From a virus, in IMG/VR virus record IMGVR_UViG_3300036791_000029, positions 1-52,133 of that record: a DNA stretch of 52,133 nucleotides; one strand, 5' to 3'. A program made the translations under genes and the position numbers. The first letter of the stretch is position 1. Each line of letters opens with the position of its first letter. Positions 6,128 through 52,133 of this stretch are shown one piece after another. The notes under the pieces are model-generated. The model was not told the origin of the DNA and made no database searches. It saw nothing but the letters and a program-made list of their open reading frames with translations.

Positions 6128-6877
6128 ATGACACCAAAACTATCGGTTGTCTCTGACAATACGAGTATGCCTCTGTATACAAATATGTGCAAGGCAATAC
6201 TTGAATGTCGTCGTGTAGATGAAGTTGCTAAACTACAAGACGATGTCAAGCGGCAATTGTATGGTCAGCAAGTAAAAGATGGCAATACAATGAAAGCTGC
6301 GCTCAATGAAATATACATTCGCGCTGAGCGCCAGCTAGGTGAATTATTGGCTGCTTTACCAAGAGCACCAACAAGGAGTCGTTACGATACCGGATTAGGT
6401 CGCGACACGCGACTTAATCCGGAGTCAAAACAAAAGGTTATGGCTGACAATGGCATTACTAAAGACAGAGCATCAAAAGCAGAACGCATTGCAAGAATAC
6501 CAAAAGCCGAATTTGAACAAGAAGTAGTTAAGCCCAAAGCCAGTATTAGAAGGTTGGCTGACTATGCAAGAAGCAAAGAACCACCAAAGCCCAAAAAGCC
6601 TGAGCCGAAGTGGTATGATCCTCATCTTGATTCCAAAGTGAGACTTACTGAGGGCCTTGAACGCATAGAACAAGGCCTGAAGATGGCTATACTGGGATTA
6701 AAGATTAAGGATTTGATCCTAGCGCGTATGCAAGACCAGGGCACAGAATTGCCTGAAGTAATGCATAGACTCAATAGGATCAGAAAACATATGGAAGCAC
6801 TGACTTTCATATGTCCTTGCCCATTACGAAATCAGAAGGCAATAACTCAACAAGTCAAGGAGACAATTGATGCCTGA
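6128..6877 (+). CDS. Conserved phage protein of the ERRLGELLA / GISKDxSS type
   Basis: A 249-residue protein whose N-terminal half (ALNEIYIRAERQLGELLAALP, then GITKDRASKAERIARIPKAEFEQEV) follows a pattern known from many phage and prophage proteins, sometimes found with DNA methyltransferase or ParB-like domains. The function is not established. A basic Pro-Lys linker (EPPKPKKPEPKW) leads to a helical C-terminus ending in CPCP. No methyltransferase motif is present. The ATG at 6128 follows TAGGAGACTAAAG, an ideal ribosome site. It is first in a two-gene unit and probably an early regulator or DNA-binding protein. Confidence 0.6.
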   Translation: MTPKLSVVSDNTSMPLYTNMCKAILECRRVDEVAKLQDDVKRQLYGQQVKDGNTMKAALNEIYIRAERQLGELLAALPRAPTRSRYDTGLGRDTRLNPESKQKVMADNGITKDRASKAERIARIPKAEFEQEVVKPKASIRRLADYARSKEPPKPKKPEPKWYDPHLDSKVRLTEGLERIEQGLKMAILGLKIKDLILARMQDQGTELPEVMHRLNRIRKHMEALTFICPCPLRNQKAITQQVKETIDA

Positions 6878-7376
6878 GTACAATCCATATCGCAAAGTCA
6901 TAGACATGCTTATGCCCAAAATCCAGAATGGAGTTCTGTATCTGGATGAACTTGAAGAGACAATGATGGAGGTTGGGATACTACCATCAGACTACAAGAA
7001 GTATGATGGTATTCCCAAAAGACTTGTAGGCGCAATTGAACGTGATCATGATGAAACGTTCAAAAGAGCTTATGAGTCCTGGAAAAGACATCTCCATCAT
7101 TTTGAGCTTGTCTGTATTGGTGAACGGGCCAGTAGGTTCAAAACTAGGATAGCCTTGAGTTTTGAACCTCTGAAAGAGAATACTCAAGAGAAACAAAGAG
7201 ATGCTGGTGACAAGTATCTCAAAGCATTTCAAAGGCGAGCCAAGGTCATTTCTAGCACCTCAACATTTAATGAAGAGGATGCCAAGGAATTAGACGATTG
7301 GCATAAGCATGCGAAGATTGTACAAGAGAAAGCACAGCAACTAAGAGTCAGATACAATAGACGTAAAATCCAATAG
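6870..7376 (+). CDS. Hypothetical protein, 168 residues
   Basis: Not recognised. Mostly helical and charged, with a basic C-terminus (AQQLRVRYNRRKIQ). The ATG at 6870 overlaps the previous stop by eight bases and follows AAGGAG, so the two genes are co-translated. It ends 14 bases before a perfect hairpin that probably ends the transcript. Confidence 0.6.
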   Translation: MPEYNPYRKVIDMLMPKIQNGVLYLDELEETMMEVGILPSDYKKYDGIPKRLVGAIERDHDETFKRAYESWKRHLHHFELVCIGERASRFKTRIALSFEPLKENTQEKQRDAGDKYLKAFQRRAKVISSTSTFNEEDAKELDDWHKHAKIVQEKAQQLRVRYNRRKIQ

Positions 7377-7390
7377 GGTCTCAAACTAGG

Positions 7391-7416
7391 CTCCTGGCGC
7401 CCAAAAGCGCCAGGAG
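7391..7416 (+). terminator. Perfect 10-bp hairpin built from the dispersed motif
   Basis: CTCCTGGCGC (7391-7400) and GCGCCAGGAG (7407-7416) are exact inverted copies around CCAAAA. It stands just after the two-gene early unit and looks like a terminator stem, but only a short T/C-rich run follows. Pairs of uptake or Chi-like motifs often double as terminators in the same way. Confidence 0.65.
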
Positions 7417-7539
7417 TATCCTTCCAGGATCAAAACCATCAATCATTTAAAAGAGAACATATCCAGAACTACCAATCAGTAGCCTGCGTTACAGATTAAC
7501 AAATGTTTAGCATTTTTGGCCCATAACCCATTGAAATCA

Positions 7540-8335
7540 TTGAGCAGAACGTAACGGGAACAAGCAGGGTACAAACGCGAACGATTGCAGGGGCACTAGG
7601 GTAGTGCTGGGTCAACCCCTAGCGCACGCCTAGCACACATCCTAGGCTCGGGAAAGGGCAGGTCTCAAAAGGTAGCCTAGTCGGCCTGTTTGACCCGCCA
7701 AGGACTGCCGTCTAAAAACAAAGATCCGTCTAAAAATGAAGTCTTTCCCCAAGGACCAAATTGTGTTACCCTAATCCCTAGATCGGTGGACGACAGGAAG
7801 GCCCGATCGACTAGCGTAACAAAATCCTCCCGCGATCTTAGACAGGAGAATAGGACATCTCGGGAAGCCGGAAGGCCCACGCTAGGGCACTTCTAGGCGT
7901 CCCCTAGGCGCGTCTAGGCACCTCCCGATAGGGTAGGCACTAGGCTAGCGTCTAGGCTCTAAGCGCCCATAGGAGAGGCTTCTAAGCCTCTCCGCCAGGG
8001 TAGTCAGGGAAGCGATAAGGGCAGGTGACCGTCAAGGTTGCCTGGCGCGGGAATAGTAGCGAAAGCGAATGGATTTACCCGCCAGCTCAGACCAACTAGT
8101 TGGGTCGCGCTTAGAGCGTTTTGAACCTTGACCTCCAACGCTCACACGTTGAAACGGTATATCAGAAAGCATACGGGAAGCCACTAGAGTGGGCAGGATA
8201 TGCGCCCCTAGTTCGCGCAAGCCGGTATGTGAGTATGGTATATAGTGAATCAGGACTAATCCTTTCAAGGCTGAATACCTGGCGTAGATACGTTTATATC
8301 TACGCTGGCAAAACAGCGCACTGAAAGGATGATCC
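7540..8335 (+). ncRNA. Probable large structured non-coding RNA
   Basis: About 800 bases with no credible gene but many helices. Examples: GCACTA 7593-7598 / TAGTGC 7602-7607; GCCTAG 7628-7633 / CTAGGC 7642-7647; nested GTTAC 7765-7769 / GTAAC 7816-7820 enclosing GATCGG 7781-7786 / CCGATC 7803-7808; GGAGAGGC 7972-7979 / GCCTCTCC 7986-7993. The outer stem GTCAAGGTT 8031-8039 / AACCTTGAC 8124-8132 encloses CTGGCGCGGG 8042-8051 / CCCGCCAG 8078-8085, capped by GC-GAAA-GC (8059-8066), a GNRA tetraloop. CAACG 8136-8140 / CGTTG 8147-8151 follows. Size and phage setting recall GOLLD and ROOL RNAs, but no family match can be claimed. The strand is inferred from the neighbours. A replication origin is the main alternative. 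Confidence 0.55.
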
Positions 8336-8425
8336 GTTGTTCCTTTCTAGGGGCAACGATGTATGTAGCCTCTGGCGGGATTGTACATCGTTGTTAATGC
8401 GGCCACGTATATGCATTTGTATATA
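8285..8425 (+). promoter_or_regulatory. Three hairpins in the leader of the 8487 gene
   Basis: GCGTAGAT...ATCTACGC (about 8283-8304), CAACGATGTA...TACATCGTTG (about 8353-8392) and CGTATAT...ATATACG (about 8405-8426) form successive hairpins, with GAAAGGATGATCC between the first two. The arrangement resembles the two-hairpin leaders further right but in longer form. It may be the 3' part of the structured RNA or the leader of the next gene. Confidence 0.45.
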
Positions 8426-8486
8426 CGCGCTGGTGGGAAGCCCAGAAAACAAAACGCAGACCCAAACCCTAGTAAGGACACTTCAA

Positions 8487-8990
8487 ATGGCTAAGTTGAC
8501 TGCTTCCAAGGTTGCCTCTTTGCGTTCCTCCACAGCGCTGGCTACGCCAGTGTTTCACGTCTATGTTGTGGAGAACACTACTGATGGTGGCCGTTATGTG
8601 TCGGTGCGGAAGAACATTTCCGCCACGGCATTTTGGTCGTTGCTTTGTGTGGGTGCGCGCGATCCTAACTTTGATCAGCCTATCCACAACAGCATCCGTG
8701 TGATGGGTGATCAGAACTCATACCTTGAGGATTCACACCACAAGATCACTCGCGTCGCAACCTATACCTCCAAGACTGAGGCGCAGGTTGTTGCGGCCAA
8801 GATGATCGAGAACAACGCTATGAAGGCACGTGCCTACAACGCTACTCGGCCCAGCGCTGGGGCTTCCGCAGATTTTGAGTGGAAGTCAGAGGCTGAGTCA
8901 GCAGCGATGGTCAAGGCCGCAAAGGCCAAGACCCGCGCGCGCAAGAGCGCAAAGGTGACAGTTCCTGCTACCACAGAGGCTGTTGCCTAA
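8487..8990 (+). CDS. Hypothetical protein with Ala/Lys-rich basic tail
   Basis: A 167-residue protein, not recognised. The body (residues 20-120) looks like a mixed alpha/beta domain. The last 35 residues are rich in Ala, Lys and Arg (KAAKAKTRARKSAKVTVP), like histone-type nucleic-acid-binding tails. Its codons are visibly more GC-rich and regular than those of its neighbours, suggesting high expression or separate origin. The ATG at 8487 follows AAGGAC seven bases upstream; the frame extends further left through leader hairpins but without a ribosome site. A DNA- or RNA-binding early protein is likely. Confidence 0.65.
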   Translation: MAKLTASKVASLRSSTALATPVFHVYVVENTTDGGRYVSVRKNISATAFWSLLCVGARDPNFDQPIHNSIRVMGDQNSYLEDSHHKITRVATYTSKTEAQVVAAKMIENNAMKARAYNATRPSAGASADFEWKSEAESAAMVKAAKAKTRARKSAKVTVPATTEAVA

Positions 8991-8998
8991 GTCTACAA

Positions 8999-9106
8999 GT
9001 TGGGCGCCAGGAGTATATACGCTTCTGGCGCCCAGCGCCGTAGTGCGATGTGTGTCGCACCCGATGATTCCAAAAGGATGAAACGGCACTAGAAAGGAAT
9101 GGAACA
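8999..9106 (+). promoter_or_regulatory. Two-hairpin leader module 1
   Basis: TGGGCGCCAGGAG (9001-9013) pairs with CTTCTGGCGCCCA (9022-9034). A second hairpin follows, GTGCGA 9043-9048 / TCGCAC 9055-9060. The common tail CTAGAAAGGAATGGAACA runs directly into the next ATG and carries the ribosome site (AAAGGA). Confidence 0.75.
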
Positions 9107-9280
9107 ATGGAATACAACATAAAGCTATCTTGGCCGTCATACCAAGATACGCCCATCAAGGCAATAGACGAAATTGCCGATGCCTTCGCTGCCTTTCTCA
9201 AAGGACAATTCAGTATTGAATCCGAATTTGGTTTAACGGCAGAAGGAATCATCTTCACAATCTTGAAGGATGATGTTTGA
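9107..9280 (+). CDS. Hypothetical protein, 57 residues
   Basis: A small protein starting at the ATG right after leader module 1. It reads MEYNIKLSWPSYQD and goes on with DEIADAFAAFLKGQ and EGIIFTILKDDV: a strand, a helix and two strands, as in small phage early proteins. No function is known. Its stop TGA overlaps the next start (TGATG), so the zinc-ribbon gene that follows is coupled to it. Confidence 0.65.
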   Translation: MEYNIKLSWPSYQDTPIKAIDEIADAFAAFLKGQFSIESEFGLTAEGIIFTILKDDV

Positions 9281-9498
9281 TGGGATATGTTTTGGCAACG
9301 GGACATTGCATTTGCTGTGGACAAATCTTTAGCTTCAATCCACATCGAGTGCCGTCCACTTCAGCAATTACTGGTTCTCGCGAACCAGTATGTCTGAACT
9401 GCATGACCATCGTCAACCAGAAGCGAATTGCTGCTGGCGTCGCGCCTCATCCGATATACGATGATGCGTATGAGGCCATCAATGAGGATGAGTTGTAA
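9280..9498 (+). CDS. Small zinc-ribbon protein
   Basis: A 72-residue protein with two CxxC knuckles: CICC near residue 10 and CLNC near residue 39, between them GQIFSFNPHRVPS. The pattern, with C-terminal HPIYDDAYEAINEDEL, is typical of a small zinc-ribbon family common in actinobacteria, their phages and other phages; its role is unknown. Zn2+ binding and contact with nucleic acid or protein are inferred. The start overlaps the previous stop. Confidence 0.7.
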   Translation: MGYVLATGHCICCGQIFSFNPHRVPSTSAITGSREPVCLNCMTIVNQKRIAAGVAPHPIYDDAYEAINEDEL

Positions 9499-9507
9499 GC
9501 AACCTTA

Positions 9508-9586
9508 ACGGAATGAGCGCCAGGAGTAACAAGCTTCTGGCGGCTCATTCCGCTAGCGTTGTGCTAGTCTAGAAAGGAATGGAACA
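9508..9586 (+). promoter_or_regulatory. Two-hairpin leader module 2
   Basis: GGAATGAGCGCCAGGAG (9510-9526) pairs with CTTCTGGCGGCTCATTCC (9534-9551) along nearly its full length. The second hairpin is CTAGC 9553-9557 / GCTAG 9563-9567, where most other modules have CCAGC / GCTGG, a compensated change. TCTAGAAAGGAATGGAACA leads into the ATG. Confidence 0.8.
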
Positions 9587-10594
9587 ATGGAAAACTACAG
9601 TCTCACAGACTTGAGTAATGTTTCGTTGGCAAAGATTACGCCAGCAAAATTTCGTGAGATGGCTCTAGCCAAGATGCTGAGTTCTGGACCAGGAATGGAC
9701 ATCAACTATATGCCAACTACAAAAGAGTTGGATGTTATGGTAGATATGCTTGCCACAGCTGTTGCTGCCGGTAGGTTTATTGATTTTGGTTTCTGGCCTA
9801 ACGAATTCATCATAAAGAGCAGCGAAAGGGCATCAAACCTATACTATGAGGGTGCTCTTGGTCATCCGTTTTCGCAACCTTGGGTATTCTTCCATACTTG
9901 GAGCGATCCAAAATTGGATGCTGCCTTTGGTCGTGATCACGACGCTGTTTCTATATACTTGGTGAATCCTTTCCCAGTCGATGGAAAGGCTGTTGCTTGT
10001 GACTTTGAGATCACAGCAATCGAGCCAATGAATGTCCTTGGAAAGCCAATGCTATGTGTTGGTGATCGTGGTGCGCTCTATTGCAAAATGGATCGCCCGC
10101 CTGGAGCGAAGTATGCTTGCTCGATAATTCCGGTCCAGTTTCGTTTTCCTATGCATTTCTGGAATGCATATGCAGACGAAATGGGTAAGGAACATGGAGC
10201 GCAAGCTGCCTTACAAGCGGCAGGTGCTAACATAATGGAGCCTGCGTTCTTGGCGCTTCAAATGCTCAATACTAGAGGCATACCTAAAGAGACGATGCGT
10301 GTTGATGATAGGTTAAATCGGGCACGTATCAAGAACAAAAAGCCACCGATACCACCTTACACAAAAGTGTCGAGCGAGGAATACATCACGACGTTTATGC
10401 GTTCTCCAACAGAGCGTCGTGCTAGCCAAGGTGGAACGCATGCTAGTCCAGTTGCCCATATCCGTATGGGTCATTGGCGGCATTATCAGAGCGGTGAACG
10501 AACGTTCATCAATGATACTCTAGTGAATGCTGATGAGAGTATGCGTAAAATCTTCAAGTCTAATCGTGCTGGGTATATAGTAAAGCAAGGTTGA
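9587..10594 (+). CDS. Conserved phage protein of unknown function, 335 residues
   Basis: Not assigned. The body is a mixed alpha/beta protein with many aromatic residues (FIDFGFWPNEF, PWVFFHTWSDP). Near the C-terminus RMGHWRHYQSGERTFINDTLV (about residues 298-318) resembles a short motif, H-x-R-x-x-x-S-G-x-x-x-x-V, seen at the ends of many unassigned phage proteins. It stands alone behind its own two-hairpin leader in the early region, so its product is probably made in quantity soon after infection. A host-takeover role is only a guess. Confidence 0.6.
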   Translation: MENYSLTDLSNVSLAKITPAKFREMALAKMLSSGPGMDINYMPTTKELDVMVDMLATAVAAGRFIDFGFWPNEFIIKSSERASNLYYEGALGHPFSQPWVFFHTWSDPKLDAAFGRDHDAVSIYLVNPFPVDGKAVACDFEITAIEPMNVLGKPMLCVGDRGALYCKMDRPPGAKYACSIIPVQFRFPMHFWNAYADEMGKEHGAQAALQAAGANIMEPAFLALQMLNTRGIPKETMRVDDRLNRARIKNKKPPIPPYTKVSSEEYITTFMRSPTERRASQGGTHASPVAHIRMGHWRHYQSGERTFINDTLVNADESMRKIFKSNRAGYIVKQG

Positions 10595-10672
10595 CGGAAT
10601 GAGCGCCAGGAGTAATGACCTGGTTGCTCATTCCGCCAGCGATTATTGCTGGGTCTAGAAAGGAATGGAACA
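10595..10672 (+). promoter_or_regulatory. Two-hairpin leader module 3
   Basis: GGAATGAGC (10596-10604) pairs with GCTCATTCC (10626-10634), with CCAGG / CCTGG inside. The second hairpin is CCAGC 10636-10640 / GCTGG 10648-10652. The tail TCTAGAAAGGAATGGAACA precedes the ATG. The module begins inside the stop codon region of the previous gene. Confidence 0.8.
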
Positions 10673-10861
10673 ATGGAGGATTTGCGGTATCACAAATGTG
10701 ATAAAGCAGAACAATTTGCACTAATAGATGCTCGTGGTATCTTTTGTTGCTATGTTTGCGATAAATGCAAAGCAGCAAAGATGACCAAGTATCGTCCAGA
10801 AATATTTACTGATCCGAACTATTGGCACGATGAGCCAATAGATATAGATGATGAAACGTAG
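10673..10861 (+). CDS. Small zinc-finger-like protein (FTDPNYW family)
   Basis: A 62-residue protein with His/Cys ligands: HKCDK near the start and CCYVCDKCK in the middle, then KYRPEIFTDPNYWHDEPID. Small proteins with this FTDPNYW.DEPI ending are widespread in proteobacteria and their phages; their function is unknown. Zn2+ binding is likely. The ATG follows leader module 3; the frame is open 27 bases upstream, but the module tail fixes the start. Confidence 0.7.
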   Translation: MEDLRYHKCDKAEQFALIDARGIFCCYVCDKCKAAKMTKYRPEIFTDPNYWHDEPIDIDDET

Positions 10862-10915
10862 ACACACATCTATAATGTTCCGATAACAAGATAATCTGTT
10901 TGAAGAAACAAGGAA

Positions 10916-10945
10916 CTAGACCAAAAGCCTAGGACGCGCTATACT
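10916..10945 (+). promoter_or_regulatory. Candidate early promoter CTAGAC-N18-TATACT, copy 2
   Basis: CTAGAC (10916-10921) and TATACT (10940-10945) repeat the boxes and the 18-base spacing found at 5984-6013. It lies in a 170-base gap, just before leader module 4, where transcription could restart. Confidence 0.4.
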
Positions 10946-10953
10946 ATCGCTTA

Positions 10954-11029
10954 CGGAATGGGCGCCAGGAGTAACATTCTGGTAGCCTATTCCGCCAGCA
11001 ATAGTGCTGGGCTAGAAAGGAATGGAACA
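10954..11029 (+). promoter_or_regulatory. Two-hairpin leader module 4
   Basis: GGAATGGGCGCCAGGAG (from 10955) pairs imperfectly with CTGGTAGCCTATTCC (to 10993). The second hairpin is CCAGC 10995-10999 / GCTGG 11006-11010. GCTAGAAAGGAATGGAACA leads into the ATG. Confidence 0.75.
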
Positions 11030-11233
11030 ATGGAAAGAAACAATATTGATGCTGCTGAAAGAATCATGCGCGAAAAGCGGTGTAGAATACATTCGTTTTT
11101 TGCAAGTGGTATTGCTCAATACGCGGTCAAAAAGGATCAATTGAGTATATCGCCAAGCTTCCGCAGTATTAAAGAACTGTGTGATTGGGTTGTTCTACAC
11201 CAAAATGCTATTGGAATGGAGGACCCAGAGTAA
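11030..11233 (+). CDS. Hypothetical protein, 67 residues
   Basis: Not recognised; a small helical protein (DAAERIMREKRCRIHSFF, then SIKELCDWVVLHQN). The ATG at 11030 is fixed by leader module 4; the frame is open upstream only because the module has no stop. The stop TAA overlaps the next ATG (TAATG), so it is the first gene of a three-gene coupled unit with those at 11233 and 11568. Confidence 0.6.
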   Translation: MERNNIDAAERIMREKRCRIHSFFASGIAQYAVKKDQLSISPSFRSIKELCDWVVLHQNAIGMEDPE

Positions 11234-11571
11234 TGGCGATCATAAAGATCAGTAAGCATCGCAAGTATCAAGGACCCAATGTTGTTGGTGTGAATGTTCC
11301 CAAGACCTGGCAAGGATTAGACAATATATTCTTGCATAGGTCCCAGGTAAAAATCGGCCTGCGACTAGTCAACTATGGCCGACTATACCACGGAACATTG
11401 TGGGAAGTTGTGGAAATCAAAACAGTATCTACTGGCGGCAGAGTGACTAAGGTTGATTCTGTGAAACGTTCAAATGATATTGTTGTATTACTGCGAGTTG
11501 GCAGTAATGAGACAACACAGCTGGGCTTTATCTACTTGTCCTATAGTGCAATATGGAGGACAACTGAGTGA
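11233..11571 (+). CDS. Hypothetical beta-rich protein, 112 residues
   Basis: Not recognised. Alternating hydrophobic and charged residues (NVVGVNVPKTW, VKIGLRLVNYGRLYHGTLWEVVEI) suggest a small beta barrel, perhaps SH3-like. The start ATG overlaps the previous stop and follows GGAGG. It has no leader of its own, so its expression depends on module 4. Confidence 0.6.
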   Translation: MAIIKISKHRKYQGPNVVGVNVPKTWQGLDNIFLHRSQVKIGLRLVNYGRLYHGTLWEVVEIKTVSTGGRVTKVDSVKRSNDIVVLLRVGSNETTQLGFIYLSYSAIWRTTE

Positions 11572-11753
11572 AGAAACCACAGAAGAGACCACCAACATTA
11601 TCAGAGAGATTGAAGAGACTTGAGAGTATTGTCAAGAAACAAGATCGAAAAATCAAAGAATTAGAGAAGAAAGTTGAACACGTATTGGATGAGGATGTAT
11701 CTGCGATACCCAATAATGATAAGTTGAACAGACCTACACAGCATCCTGAATAG
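11568..11753 (+). CDS. Short coiled-coil protein
   Basis: A 61-residue basic protein. Residues 10-45 (LSERLKRLESIVKKQDRKIKELEKKVEHV) show a clear heptad pattern, so a dimeric or trimeric coiled coil is likely; the C-terminus is polar and disordered. The start is GTG at 11568, overlapping the previous stop and preceded by GGAGGA. The partner is unknown. Confidence 0.65.
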   Translation: MKKPQKRPPTLSERLKRLESIVKKQDRKIKELEKKVEHVLDEDVSAIPNNDKLNRPTQHPE

Positions 11754-11756
11754 CAG

Positions 11757-11841
11757 CCTTGACGGATGGGCGCCAGAAGAACAATACTCCTGGCCGCCTA
11801 TCCGCCAGCGCTGTTGCTGGAACTAGAAAGGAAAAGGAACA
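11757..11841 (+). promoter_or_regulatory. Two-hairpin leader module 5
   Basis: GGATGGGCGCCAG (from 11764) pairs with CTGGCCGCCTATCC (to 11802). Here the right arm carries CTCCTGG and the left arm CCAGAAG, the reverse of the other modules, so the motif has swapped sides. The second hairpin is CCAGC 11805-11809 / GCTGG 11816-11820. ACTAGAAAGGAAAAGGAACA precedes the ATG. Confidence 0.75.
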
Positions 11842-12153
11842 ATGGCAATTGTATGGATACCTATGCATCCACGAGCGCATCCTGATATGCTTGGTTATCT
11901 CCCAACATTCTTACTTGAAAATGATCCTAGACCGGCCAAAGAACAATTCCAAGAAAGATATGTATTTGGTGGCTGGAGTTCATTTGCAGGTTTTGAATTA
12001 ATAGCAAATGACAAATTAAAGTATCCAGGTGATCCACCAATATTGCCGATCTATAGAACATATTTGCGTGATGAAGAAATAACGATGTATGAACATGCGT
12101 GGGTAATGATAAGACAAAAAGATGGAACTTGGGAAGTATCCAGAATGGATTAG
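11842..12153 (+). CDS. Hypothetical protein, 103 residues
   Basis: Not recognised. It is rich in aromatic residues and Pro (IPMHPRAHPDMLGYLPTFL, YVFGGWSSFAGFEL) and ends in two likely strands (AWVMIRQKDGTWEVSR), suggesting a compact alpha/beta fold. It is a single gene behind leader module 5, whose tail sets the ATG. A TTG-led frame in another register overlaps it but lacks a ribosome site. Confidence 0.6.
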   Translation: MAIVWIPMHPRAHPDMLGYLPTFLLENDPRPAKEQFQERYVFGGWSSFAGFELIANDKLKYPGDPPILPIYRTYLRDEEITMYEHAWVMIRQKDGTWEVSRMD

Positions 12154-12159
12154 CAGTAT

Positions 12160-12262
12160 TGATGGAATATACGAACGTATCTACGTCGCGTATATACGAT
12201 CGTATATTCCACCAGCGCTGCGCTGGAAAGCCTAACTAACTCTGTCTAGAAAGGATGGAACA
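12160..12262 (+). promoter_or_regulatory. Two-hairpin leader module 6 (divergent arms)
   Basis: The first stem is different in sequence but preserved in form: GGAATATACGA (12164-12174) pairs with TCGTATATTCC (12200-12210). The right arm is part of the 16-bp palindrome ATATACGATCGTATAT (12192-12207), identical to that at 1465. The second hairpin is CCAGC / GCTGG (about 12212-12225). CCTAACTAAC and TCTAGAAAGGATGGAACA follow. Confidence 0.7.
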
Positions 12263-12505: not shown

Positions 12506-12696
12506 GATGGAGAGAAACCCAGAAGGTGCCATTTAGATTAATACAAACACAATGCTGTGGAACTCAACTCTGTTGGGTAAATCCACGGCTGCCTATGCAT
12601 TGTCCTGAATGTGGTAAGTTTTGTTATCCAGCAGTAAAAGGCTGGGTAACAAATACATTTAACAATGCAATGCTTGTGTATGATGTAGAAAGATAG
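12502..12696 (+). CDS. Small zinc-ribbon protein
   Basis: A 64-residue protein with CCG near residue 18, C near 24 and HCPECGKFCY near 33-42, a likely zinc ribbon. It overlaps the upstream stop by four bases. It is the third small Cys-rich protein in this early region, all of unknown role; such proteins often bind host RNA polymerase or nucleic acid, but nothing here shows a target. Confidence 0.6.
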   Translation: MRWRETQKVPFRLIQTQCCGTQLCWVNPRLPMHCPECGKFCYPAVKGWVTNTFNNAMLVYDVER

Positions 12697-12703
12697 CAGT
12701 ATT

Positions 12704-12780
12704 GACGGAATGGGCGCCAGGAGCAAATACTTCTGGCCGCCTATTCAGCCAGCACTGCGCTGGTGAAAGGAAAAGGAACA
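12704..12780 (+). promoter_or_regulatory. Two-hairpin leader module 7
   Basis: GGAATGGGCGCCAGGAG (from 12707) pairs with CTTCTGGCCGCCTATTC (to 12746). The second hairpin is CCAGC 12749-12753 / GCTGG 12759-12763. The shortened tail GTGAAAGGAAAAGGAACA leads into the ATG. Confidence 0.75.
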
Positions 12781-49915: not shown

Positions 49916-51321
49916 GACGATAATGCCAAGTAACGTTCATATTGCGATACACCAGCGATACATTCTAGATAGGCACCACTACTGGCGTCAATATAATCAT
50001 CATGATCACCCTCAGGAAAAACAGCCATTTCCTTCAAGTAATCATTCACCCACTGGCCTTCAACTATGTCAATATTACCAGCTTGCCATTGCGCAGATAG
50101 TGGTTCTGCCCTCGTTTCTTTTGGTCCAGTTTCTCTTACTGACTTAGCCTTGAAGCCGGCAAGATGAGAGATGAGACTTGCTGATTGATCCTTTCCAGCC
50201 TGTCCTGGATCTTGTGGCACGACCGTTGTAACTCGTTTATACTTGTTACGATCCTGCCAAGCAGTATTAAGCAATATATCACGAACAATAGAAGCATTAT
50301 GTCTAATGCTAATACCATCAGCAATACATATGCGGCCATTCTCTCTGCGACCCATTAATACTGAAGCTGTAGCACTAGGCGAAGGATTAACTTCACTAGG
50401 TTCTGTGGCAGCCAAATCCCAGCGACGCACCCACATCTTCACATCAGTAGGAACAGCAGGAATAATCTTGGCCATTACTTGAGGGAAATAAGAACCAGCA
50501 CTAGGTCTAATCTTCCAATTACCATGTAACAGACGTTCACGCTCAACTCTAGTCATCATCTCTAGGTTGGCACGATAGTCTGGGTCTTGTTCGTTCAGAA
50601 TAACATTATCTTCTAATGTTGCCGGAATGAATGTAAATGACTTAGGCAACGACGCAGGGAATTTATTGAGTAACTCCTGGCGCGTGTCAGCCCAAAACAT
50701 TTTATCATCAAATCTGACAAAGTAACGAATAATGCCACTTCGTTCTAATATTGGGTAACCAGTATCTTGATCAATCCACCAAGAGACTAGATCAGCAACC
50801 CAAGAGTCAGCATCAGGATTGCAAGTAGCACGTATATACGGTCTAACACCACACATCGAACGATTACGAGACAGCATATACCAAAATTGCTTCTCGGTGA
50901 AGTGAGTAAGCTCATCATATCCAATGAGTGGTATCTGCGAGCCTTGCCAATCCAGCACATCCTTTTCTTGGTTGAGATGGCCAAACGTTATTGTCGATCC
51001 ACTAGGGAAAGACCATGAACGATATGGACTTTGTTTTGGTATACCATCTATACGCACATATATGCCGAAACTTGTATCAAACAAACCACCTTCTGAGGTT
51101 ATTTGTACAGCTTCACGACGGAATATGACTGCTCCAAAGTCACTATTGTCGAGGTGTCGGCATGGTTCTAACAGTAATGCGTATGTTTTGCCGCCTCCGG
51201 CTGCACCTCCATATATGGCTATGTCAGCACTAGTAGACAAGAATTGTTCTTGTGGTCCAGGTTGCGGACCAATATCATTAGTATCATCAAATCCATCATA
51301 CATATTATGCCGCTTCCCCAT
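49912..51321 (-). CDS. terL: Terminase large subunit
   Basis: The ATPase-nuclease that packages DNA, 469 residues. Walker A is GGAAGGGKT (about 39-47), Walker B lies in LIGYDELTHF, followed by LSRNRS. The RNase H-like nuclease domain has RRWDLAATE (first Asp), VVPQDPGQAGKDQ and HDDYIDASSGAY (last Asp). Length fits the family. The ATG at 51321 overlaps terS; TTG at 51324 or ATG at 51303 are alternatives. A diverged allele of its start is at 1-127. Confidence 0.88.
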   Translation of the reverse strand: MGKRHNMYDGFDDTNDIGPQPGPQEQFLSTSADIAIYGGAAGGGKTYALLLEPCRHLDNSDFGAVIFRREAVQITSEGGLFDTSFGIYVRIDGIPKQSPYRSWSFPSGSTITFGHLNQEKDVLDWQGSQIPLIGYDELTHFTEKQFWYMLSRNRSMCGVRPYIRATCNPDADSWVADLVSWWIDQDTGYPILERSGIIRYFVRFDDKMFWADTRQELLNKFPASLPKSFTFIPATLEDNVILNEQDPDYRANLEMMTRVERERLLHGNWKIRPSAGSYFPQVMAKIIPAVPTDVKMWVRRWDLAATEPSEVNPSPSATASVLMGRRENGRICIADGISIRHNASIVRDILLNTAWQDRNKYKRVTTVVPQDPGQAGKDQSASLISHLAGFKAKSVRETGPKETRAEPLSAQWQAGNIDIVEGQWVNDYLKEMAVFPEGDHDDYIDASSGAYLECIAGVSQYERYLALSS

Positions 51322-51622
51322 CAATAATTTTGACAGGAGTATTCATGCGGCCATTGTCTGGTAAATATACTTTGACCCTACTAGAACTTTGGTTCGCACT
51401 AGTATCGTCATTAATGTACACTGTTTGACGTGGCTTGCCATATGCGCGATTAGACACAAACTCCATTAGACGAATGCGATCACCATGTGACATAGATGGA
51501 TCAGCAAACATCTCGTCAACTTGGCGAAGGATTGTGGGTGTGCGTTGACGACATTCAGTCATCATTTCGCGCAAGGTATAAATGCGCGCTAGCTCAGTGT
51601 GAGGATCGAAACCATCAGGCAT
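51305..51622 (-). CDS. terS: Terminase small subunit-like protein, right allele
   Basis: A 105-residue protein identical in sequence to that at 111-428, encoded by DNA that differs at several third codon positions. It is coupled to the complete terL downstream. GGTGGA lies about 12 bases before the ATG. The gap to the nuclease allele (51623-51770) holds no gene; it is AT-rich and contains an ACGTAG / CTACGT inverted repeat near its end. Confidence 0.75.
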   Translation of the reverse strand: MPDGFDPHTELARIYTLREMMTECRQRTPTILRQVDEMFADPSMSHGDRIRLMEFVSNRAYGKPRQTVYINDDTSANQSSSRVKVYLPDNGRMNTPVKIIDGEAA

Positions 51623-51770
51623 TACATTGTGACGTCCACCAGAATAACATTACGTACAAGAGACGTTAGCGCGTATATACCATCGTAGTTGCGCAGTCTA
51701 GTCACTAACTTTATTCTCGCGATAAGTTTACCTATTCCTAATTCGTTCTCTATAGTTACTGACGAAACTA

Positions 51771-52133
51771 TCACGTAGATACGTTCGTAGCTACGTTGTT
51801 TTTAGCCTGCGGAACAAACAAATCCTTAAACCAGTCATATATCTCCCATTTATCTTCTGTGAACTTTACAAGTTGTTCAATTTTTATTGGATGCTTAGGC
51901 ACACTTAACCATGTTGACCAATTACCACAACGCAATACTCCAAACTTTGTTATCTCATCGCGATAATCATAAAAGCCAAGAAACAAAAAACAAAAGCCTC
52001 CTGATCGTTGCCACTTAGCTAACCAAGCAGCTTGATCAGCTGTTAGTTCTGAAACTCTAAATGTTGTAGCTCTAAATCTATGTTCTATAACTTTGAGTTC
52101 AAACCATACAATACGCGAGTTGTTGATTTGTAT
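51771..52133 (-). CDS. PD-(D/E)XK nuclease, C-terminal part, second allele (cut by window end)
   Basis: The start lies beyond the window. The visible 120 codons cover the ExK motif (FELKV) to the end and are close to residues 35-153 of the left copy, with changes such as VIEHRFRATTF for VIQYKFGASTF. The C-terminus differs fully after FVPQA (KNNVATNVST against TRAASGVANV), where the left allele leads into the 82-codon gene. This marks the recombination or deletion boundary. Confidence 0.8.
   Translation of the reverse strand: MQINNSRIVWFELKVIEHRFRATTFRVSELTADQAAWLAKWQRSGGFCFLFLGFYDYRDEITKFGVLRCGNWSTWLSVPKHPIKIEQLVKFTEDKWEIYDWFKDLFVPQAKNNVATNVST

Follow-up and report, generated by a model that had tools for sequence, protein, structure and literature searches.

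Does a long stretch of phage DNA without a credible gene encode a structured RNA, and what might such an RNA do at the head of an early operon? This question is raised by a noncoding gap in the window, the whole stretch of DNA that was analysed, which is a virus record of 52,133 bases. The window carries a contractile-tail gene set (sheath, baseplate, tape measure, portal, major head protein and large terminase), with structural genes running leftward at 24-52 kb and rightward genes at about 6-24 kb. Its two ends (1-1140 and 51198-52133) are alike over about 1 kb with 94-96% identity and one gap, which would fit a circular genome or a terminal repeat put together from variants. The gap extends from 7377 to 8486 and is flanked by open reading frames at 6867-7376 and 8487-8990, both on the + strand. 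An initial annotation had seen no credible gene in 7540-8335, which agrees with the absence of an open reading frame from the gap and with the gap lengths in the alignment of the window with its relative L133, mostly not multiples of three. Searches of the window found no tRNA and no Rfam family at gathering score.

Structure and extent of the noncoding RNA

The initial annotation had proposed a large structured RNA in 7540-8335, to be checked by folding against shuffled sequence and by looking for homologues with compensatory changes. The region folded more stably than all 20 dinucleotide shuffles on both strands, with a z-score of −5.27 on the + strand and −3.67 on the − strand. For the RNA body at about 7773-8395, z was −7.8 in the window and ranged from −2.6 to −9.9 over all 11 sequences available (see below), being more negative on the + than on the − strand in 10 of the 11. 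However, 12 coding controls of 600 nt from the same virus gave z-scores from +0.6 to −5.1, and folding energy alone is therefore not decisive; it is compensatory covariation that decides for a structured RNA.

Relatives were collected by several routes. A twister-core pattern search brought in another viral contig, L002, in which the neighbouring genes are the same and the noncoding stretch is homologous to that of the window, with about 74% identity over 1 kb. Among 45 records selected for proteins in common (mostly terminase), a DNA search gave three matches, G001 (the same contig as L002), G018 and the distant G015. The 3' part of the window and of these three relatives (L002/G001, G018 and G015) contains an 18-mer, CCRTTGTTCCTTTCTAGG, and a search with it returned 15 contigs, 14 of which have a twister directly downstream; all 11 newly tested records were similar to the RNA of G015. 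Of the 15, three were known before (L002, L098 and L105), L103 was discarded as a chance match, and L101, L106, L107 and L109 are repeats that were not counted as distinct. Removal of duplicates left 11 distinct sequences including the window, that is, ten relatives, all of them viral contigs. A model of the terminal domain matched 3 of 49 records related mostly by terminase, many of which are fragments, and all three were already known. A collection of cultured phages held no DNA matching the RNA of the window or of L128 and no protein matching the first-gene product of L135, while host genomes gave no match to the twister-linked pattern and six to the bare 18-mer, none with a twister, so that no prophage copy was found.

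Covariation was counted separately in two subgroups, the consensus folds of which are not identical, rather than over one model of 11 bodies; L127 and L132 were left out because of poor alignment. In the subgroup of the window (window, L133, L134, L131 and L129, 5 of the 11 sequences), the RNAalifold consensus holds 145 pairs, 50 of them with compensatory double changes, compared with 22.0 in shuffled and at most 10 in slid controls, and 92.3% of its cells are paired (at most 44.7% when slid). A fold predicted from the window body alone, used so that the structure is not derived from the alignment, showed double changes in 57 of 181 pairs (25.8 shuffled, at most 11 slid). The second subgroup (L126, L128, L130 and L135) showed them in 33 of 81 pairs, compared with 13.0 in shuffled controls. 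The observation of a large structured RNA is confirmed by these homologues, and its existence can be taken as virtually certain; the region that bears it is larger than had been described. The body and its best supported helices are as follows.

7773..8395, + strand: structured RNA body, recognised by covariation, with an inferred start and an end at the predicted twister cut
7862..7955, + strand: two conserved helices, 7862-7877/7887-7903 and 7904-7917/7940-7955, with double changes in 7 of 15 and 5 of 14 pairs
7972..7993, + strand: hairpin GGAGAGGC..GCCTCTCC, with double changes in 5 of 8 pairs
8020..8046, + strand: hairpin 8020-8030/8036-8046, containing the GTCAAGGTT segment, with double changes in 5 of 10 pairs
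8259..8330, + strand: long hairpin 8259-8267/8322-8330 with inner helices, with double changes in 5 of 9 outer pairs

The multibranch unit named earlier did not survive this comparison. Its closing helix, GTCAAGGTT/AACCTTGAC (8031-8039/8124-8132), is present in the window, but four relatives keep only 2, 3, 2 and 1 of its 9 pairs; it is not among the conserved helices and was rejected, and GTCAAGGTT belongs instead to the covarying hairpin 8020-8030/8036-8046. As a separate observation, a hairpin motif UAGC-loop-GCGGGAUUA occurs in two copies in the RNAs of L128 (3138-3780) and L130 (1367-1945) and in one copy in most others, and looks like a reused internal-loop module.

Upstream of the body, the gap contains the following elements.

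7391..7416, + strand: perfect hairpin CTCCTGGCGC..GCGCCAGGAG following the upstream gene; its sequence resembles a terminator or processing site, and L002 has it too
7547..7582, + strand: GAAC direct repeats (GAAC-N7-GAAC, then another GAAC) upstream of the RNA, probably a DNA-binding site
7710..7736, + strand: two GTCTAAAAA repeats; most relatives keep GTCTAAAAA..AAGACT
7767..7772, + strand: site aligned with the −10 hexamer of the promoter-like pair of the relatives, weak in the window

The promoter-like hexamer pair has the top score at a common aligned place in 5 of the 11 sequences and is among the best five sites, at or within 5 nt of that place, in 8 of the 11. The stretch before it, with the GAAC and GTCTAAAAA repeats, folds in the window no better than shuffles (z = −0.18). 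Given this aligned pair and the chance-level folding that precedes it, we place the RNA at about 7773-8395, so that it probably spans some 620 nt; the start at about 7773 may be wrong, the promoter hexamers of the window itself being weak. The boundaries 7540-8335 are thus shifted at both ends: the part from about 7540 to 7772 is probably promoter or operator DNA rather than RNA, and the 3' module of the RNA reaches about 8395, with the ribozyme extending to 8467. The body has a G+C content of 0.536, compared with 0.413 for the window. The candidate binding site at 7547-7582, in which the GAAC repeats are spaced by 11, 11 and 10 in L133/L134, resembles an alphaproteobacterial LexA box. A rhizobial or other alphaproteobacterial soil bacterium may be guessed as host from the terminase relatives and the motifs. 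CTAGG/CCTAG words are frequent across the upstream block and the RNA body (window 7580-7980), and in L132 (643-1692) the GAAC-repeat block upstream of the RNA appears by eye to be inverted.

The twister ribozyme at the 3' border

A search of 7300-8520 with all 4227 Rfam families at E <= 10 gave two matches, a twister-P1 at the 3' end and one chance match. None of the models for GOLLD, ROOL, OLE and HEARO, with which the initial annotation had suggested comparison, matched; assignment of the body to these or any other Rfam family was rejected, and the suggestion of a possible new class outside GOLLD and ROOL holds. The features at the 3' border are listed below.

8334..8351, + strand: conserved 18-mer CCGUUGUUCCUUUCUAGG, antisense to the ribosome-binding site and start codon of early genes
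8342..8351, + strand: 5' strand of twister P1, CCUUUCUAGG; 97.3% of P1 cells paired in 11 sequences
8354..8393, + strand: hairpin inserted between P1 and the cut site, variable in sequence among relatives
8391..8467, + strand: type-P1 twister ribozyme with a predicted cut at U8395/A8396, recognised by an Rfam model match and by covarying P2, P4 and T1
8468..8477, + strand: 3' strand of P1, CCTAGTAAGG, doubling as the first-gene Shine-Dalgarno; one P1 mismatch in the window
8487..8990, + strand: first early gene, 167 amino acids, conserved after the RNA in relatives

The twister match of the window (8391-8467) scored 25.4 bits, below the Rfam gathering score of 67.2 bits, with an E-value of 0.0081, or 0.00067 in another scan; it was seen in short scans and missed in longer ones, and the first-gene twisters of relatives scored 24.5-44.5 bits where found. 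The claim of a twister for this terminal copy rests on its core and on covariation, not on the Rfam score. All 11 sequences have the core (UAAUGC..GC, GGU..AAGCCC, GCAGA), with slight deviations in L132, L135 and some others. In an alignment of the 11 that was not fitted to the structure, P2 and T1 have 100% and P4 81.8% of their cells paired, all with double changes, and the T1 pseudoknot occurs as GGG/CCC, GGC/GCC, GAC/GUC, CUC/GAG and CCC/GGG. The whole-structure score was 0.315, compared with 0.101 for shuffled and at most 0.071 for slid controls, and none of 500 shuffles reached it. In the window T1 reads GGG/CCC, the Rfam consensus with its two sides exchanged; since pseudoknots are not scored as pairs by covariance models, this exchange may account for the low model score. 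The twister cleavage step is U-A, with P1 dispensable for cleavage, according to the part of the source consulted (PMC6154101), and the cut is therefore predicted between U8395 and A8396. The ribozyme lies directly before the first early gene in 11 of 11 sequences.

The core letters, P2, P4, T1 and the U-A step at the cut are those of known twisters (Rfam RF03160, type P1, and RF02684, type P5). By contrast, this copy falls below the P1 gathering cut-off, carries an extra hairpin between P1 and the cut site, is located at the end of a large RNA, and has a P1 that doubles as a Shine-Dalgarno/antisense helix. In this helix CCUUUCUAGG is paired with CCUAGNAAGG, which serves the next gene as its Shine-Dalgarno and in most sequences stands about 10 nt ahead of the ATG. 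The extra hairpin is present in ten sequences and absent in L135, where P1 abuts the twister core. We are highly confident that the twister stands at the 3' end of the RNA, and by analogy with its family the RNA is likely to be released as a separate molecule by self-cleavage. The protein of the first early gene gave one sub-threshold Pfam match and an AlphaFold2 model with a pLDDT of 80; it had no PHROG and no Foldseek match at E <= 0.001 (the best, at 0.24, being a 5hmC-specific endonuclease), and we take its motifs to recall GIY-YIG nucleases.

A conserved 18-mer, the early-gene leaders and models of function

The 18-mer, with the consensus CCRUUGUUCCUUUCUAGG, overlaps P1. Its complement is CCUAGAAAGGAACAAYGG, and in the window CUAGAAAGGAAUGGAACAAUGG or a close variant stands before early genes. 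When both strands of the 52-kb window were searched with RNAduplex, the seven best sites besides its own complement were the following seven early-gene starts.

9089..9109, + strand: early-gene leader CTAGAAAGGAATGGAACAATG, predicted 18-mer target
9569, 10655, 11012, 11823, 12246 and before 12779, + strand: further predicted 18-mer targets

These seven pair at −22.7 to −20.2 kcal/mol, and all other sites at −18.9 or weaker. Among gene starts picked by the analyst from the list of open reading frames, 7 of 12 early starts lie at or below −19 compared with 0 of 53 others; the five early starts without a site include the first gene and the downstream genes of close-packed pairs. No shuffled 18-mer out of 1000 gave seven early starts, the maximum being four. 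The leader core CTAGAAAGGA has exactly six copies on the + strand, only in 9089-12255, and its complement occurs once, within the RNA. In seven loci of relatives, with leaders judged by eye from the sequence letters and the own complement left out, the sites at or below −19 that are early leaders numbered 9 of 9 in L127, 7 of 7 in L129, 7 of 8 in L130, 10 of 12 in L131, 7 of 7 in L133, 7 of 10 in L134 and 8 of 8 in L135. By predicted pairing energy, the 18-mer is strongly and selectively complementary to early-gene starts. The targets are not independent tests, because the early leaders are nearly identical to one another, and no compensatory change between the 18-mer and the leaders was seen.

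The 18-mer is present in 4 of 4 sequences found without its use (window, L002, G018 and G015). A search by twister and Shine-Dalgarno letters, again without the 18-mer, gave 11 contigs, four of them chance and seven with a first-gene twister, all seven already known; the 18-mer is present in 7 of these 7. The other seven distinct 18-mers were collected via the 18-mer itself, and their identity is therefore no evidence. The first-gene leader is variable and offers no cis partner for the 5' part of the 18-mer, CCRUUGUU, so that P1 in cis alone does not explain the conservation. When the released RNA of the window is folded in silico, most of the 18-mer is predicted to be paired (mean unpaired 0.08), and its opening would cost 14.7 kcal/mol, leaving a net −7.4 with a leader; in the ten other RNAs it is predicted to be about as open as average (0.27-0.51), with net binding of −9.9 to −17.4. 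Whether the RNA pairs in trans with early leaders appears evenly balanced on the complementarity found.

From the features established here, namely a structured RNA that is conserved, bears a twister at its 3' border and is strongly and selectively complementary to early starts, we infer the following course of transcription, self-cleavage, release, trans pairing and repression. The RNA, a new family of about 620 nt, would be transcribed at the head of the phage early transcript, and the twister, the structure of which follows from covariation and its cleavage from its family, would cut it from the following mRNA. Before the cut, ten bases of the 18-mer and the first-gene Shine-Dalgarno would together form P1; afterwards the strands of P1 would lie on separate molecules, leaving the antisense free to pair with other early leaders. 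Such pairing would block ribosome entry and so damp or time early expression; that the net effect is repression is suggested with slightly less than even confidence by the position of the complementary sites. A self-released antisense regulator of early translation is the best explanation, with a probability of about 0.5.

The same helix would also fit a long 5' untranslated region acting in cis only, in which P1 masks the Shine-Dalgarno of the first gene, self-cleavage relieves the masking, and the match to other leaders arises only from a Shine-Dalgarno sequence common to all early genes. P1 does join the RNA end to that Shine-Dalgarno in 97.3% of cells, and the twister is found directly before the gene in all 11 sequences. 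However, the 18-mer reaches eight bases past P1 into the complement of GGAACAAUGG, which is absent from the first-gene leader and present in other early leaders, so that a cis-only leader accounts for ten of the eighteen conserved bases and not for the rest, and we consider it rather unlikely. That the body is far bigger than an antisense needs, and similar to GOLLD and ROOL in length and in the elaborateness of its fold, would suit a structural or cage RNA that works like them as a multimer or scaffold and in which the 3' module only makes the end; this is improbable, as there is no Rfam match to GOLLD, ROOL or OLE and no tRNA in the window, and the 18-mer would be left unexplained.

The position of the RNA at the head of the early operon raises another explanation, a put- or boxA-like leader that modifies RNA polymerase to pass the many hairpins of the operon. 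Most relatives have two conserved TCTTTGA motifs, which we take to resemble boxA, but these have diverged in the window and found no support from boxA literature or a sequence test, making antitermination still less probable than a scaffold. Conservation could instead reflect an origin, packaging or control site in DNA: in the 5' part (about 7540-7770) the GAAC repeats recur at near-helical spacing, this part folds in the window no better than shuffles, and L132 has a similar block that appears by eye to be inverted. The compensatory changes and the ribozyme in the rest of the region make this explanation extremely improbable for the locus.

Ribozymes along the early operon and comparison with known systems

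Each type of component of the antisense regulator (twister, antisense, ornate RNA) is already known. Lambda OOP and P22 sar are trans-acting antisense small RNAs and, like them, the present RNA has a short antisense segment over translation start sites; unlike them, it is a structured carrier of about 620 nt with a ribozyme-made 3' end and one antisense for about seven genes. We know of no comparable arrangement, and the RNA family matches nothing catalogued; among the open-licence papers listed by searches on phage ribozymes and large RNAs, no title or abstract opening describes such an RNA. With GOLLD, ROOL and OLE it shares the character of a large, elaborate RNA. The resemblance in style to GOLLD and ROOL noted earlier holds for size and goes no further: there is no sequence or covariance-model match, the neighbouring tRNAs often seen with GOLLD and ROOL are absent from the window, and this RNA ends in a ribozyme and carries an antisense to early-gene starts. 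The present RNA enlarges the small set of large structured RNA families found in phages. GOLLD and ROOL are phage-borne too, with functions given as unknown in the part of the source consulted (PMC12286853), whereas this RNA has a concrete predicted target set. A large noncoding structured RNA stands from the initial annotation, which had named the wrong multibranch unit and missed the twister, the 18-mer and an operon punctuated by ribozymes, the features that hint at function.

This punctuation is seen in the following features.

9037..9087, + strand: type-III hammerhead-like motif before the second early gene, identified by eye
L135:4396-4730, L127:4538-6883, L130:2461-4124 and L131:4483-7186, coding strand: ribozyme series in relatives
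9498-9568, 10584-10654, 10940-11011, 11752-11822, 12148-12245 and 12692-12765, window: repeated element

The motif at 9037-9087 has the core CCGATGA, not CTGATGA, which makes its activity doubtful, and a search of the window with RF00008 gave no match there; relatives carry a hammerhead at this place (31-36 bits, below the gathering score of 48.5). Before most genes of the relatives' operons lie hammerhead-III, Twister-P5 or twister-P1 ribozymes on the coding strand. In six loci (67 kb), cmscan detected 8 Twister-P5, each above gathering score, 11 twister-P1 and 2 hammerhead-III, all on the early-gene strand, plus one miRNA-like chance match. Over 11 whole records there were 8 Twister-P5 above cut-off in 5 records, 3 hammerheads in 3 records and 19 twister-P1 at E <= 0.001 in 9 records (two overlapping P5 matches), all 30 rows on the strand of the RNA, compared with none for both twister models and 2 hammerheads, neither above cut-off, in 14 control genomes.

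In relatives, these hammerhead and twister ribozymes would also cut the early transcript just upstream of leaders. Clustered prophage hammerheads flanking genes were proposed by Perreault et al. (2011) to process long transcripts (PMC3088659), and both systems have several self-cleaving ribozymes flanking genes. In contrast to what the consulted part of that source describes, the hammerheads here occur among twisters of types P1 and P5, downstream of a large RNA and ahead of a shared leader complementary to it; ribozyme punctuation itself is thus already known, and what appear new are the large RNA, the mixing of ribozyme types in one series, and the antisense link. A review, as far as consulted, treats the roles of prokaryotic hammerheads and related self-cleaving motifs as an open question with a persistent phage link (PMC6155905), and the locus offers a testable role for them: they would generate the ends both of a regulatory RNA and of its candidate mRNA partners. 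A bolder reading, which we hold tentatively and at somewhat below even odds, is a master RNA of phages that forms a new class, large and self-released; through one antisense tail it would govern how the early regulon as a whole is translated, while hammerheads, twisters of types P1 and P5 and perhaps another, uncharacterised class of self-cleaving ribozyme would divide the operon at each gene.

The repeated element of the window precedes six other early genes, directly upstream of the leader, and consists of a long hairpin opening YGG(A)AT.. followed by a short hairpin CCAGC-N-GCUGG. It matched no Rfam family; twister-sister (RF02681) was tried and not matched, and an extra pairing is not claimed (42 of 1000 in a refined test). 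The element occupies the position of the relatives' hammerhead or twister ribozymes and, by this analogy, may itself be a self-cleaving ribozyme of a further kind or mark a processing site.
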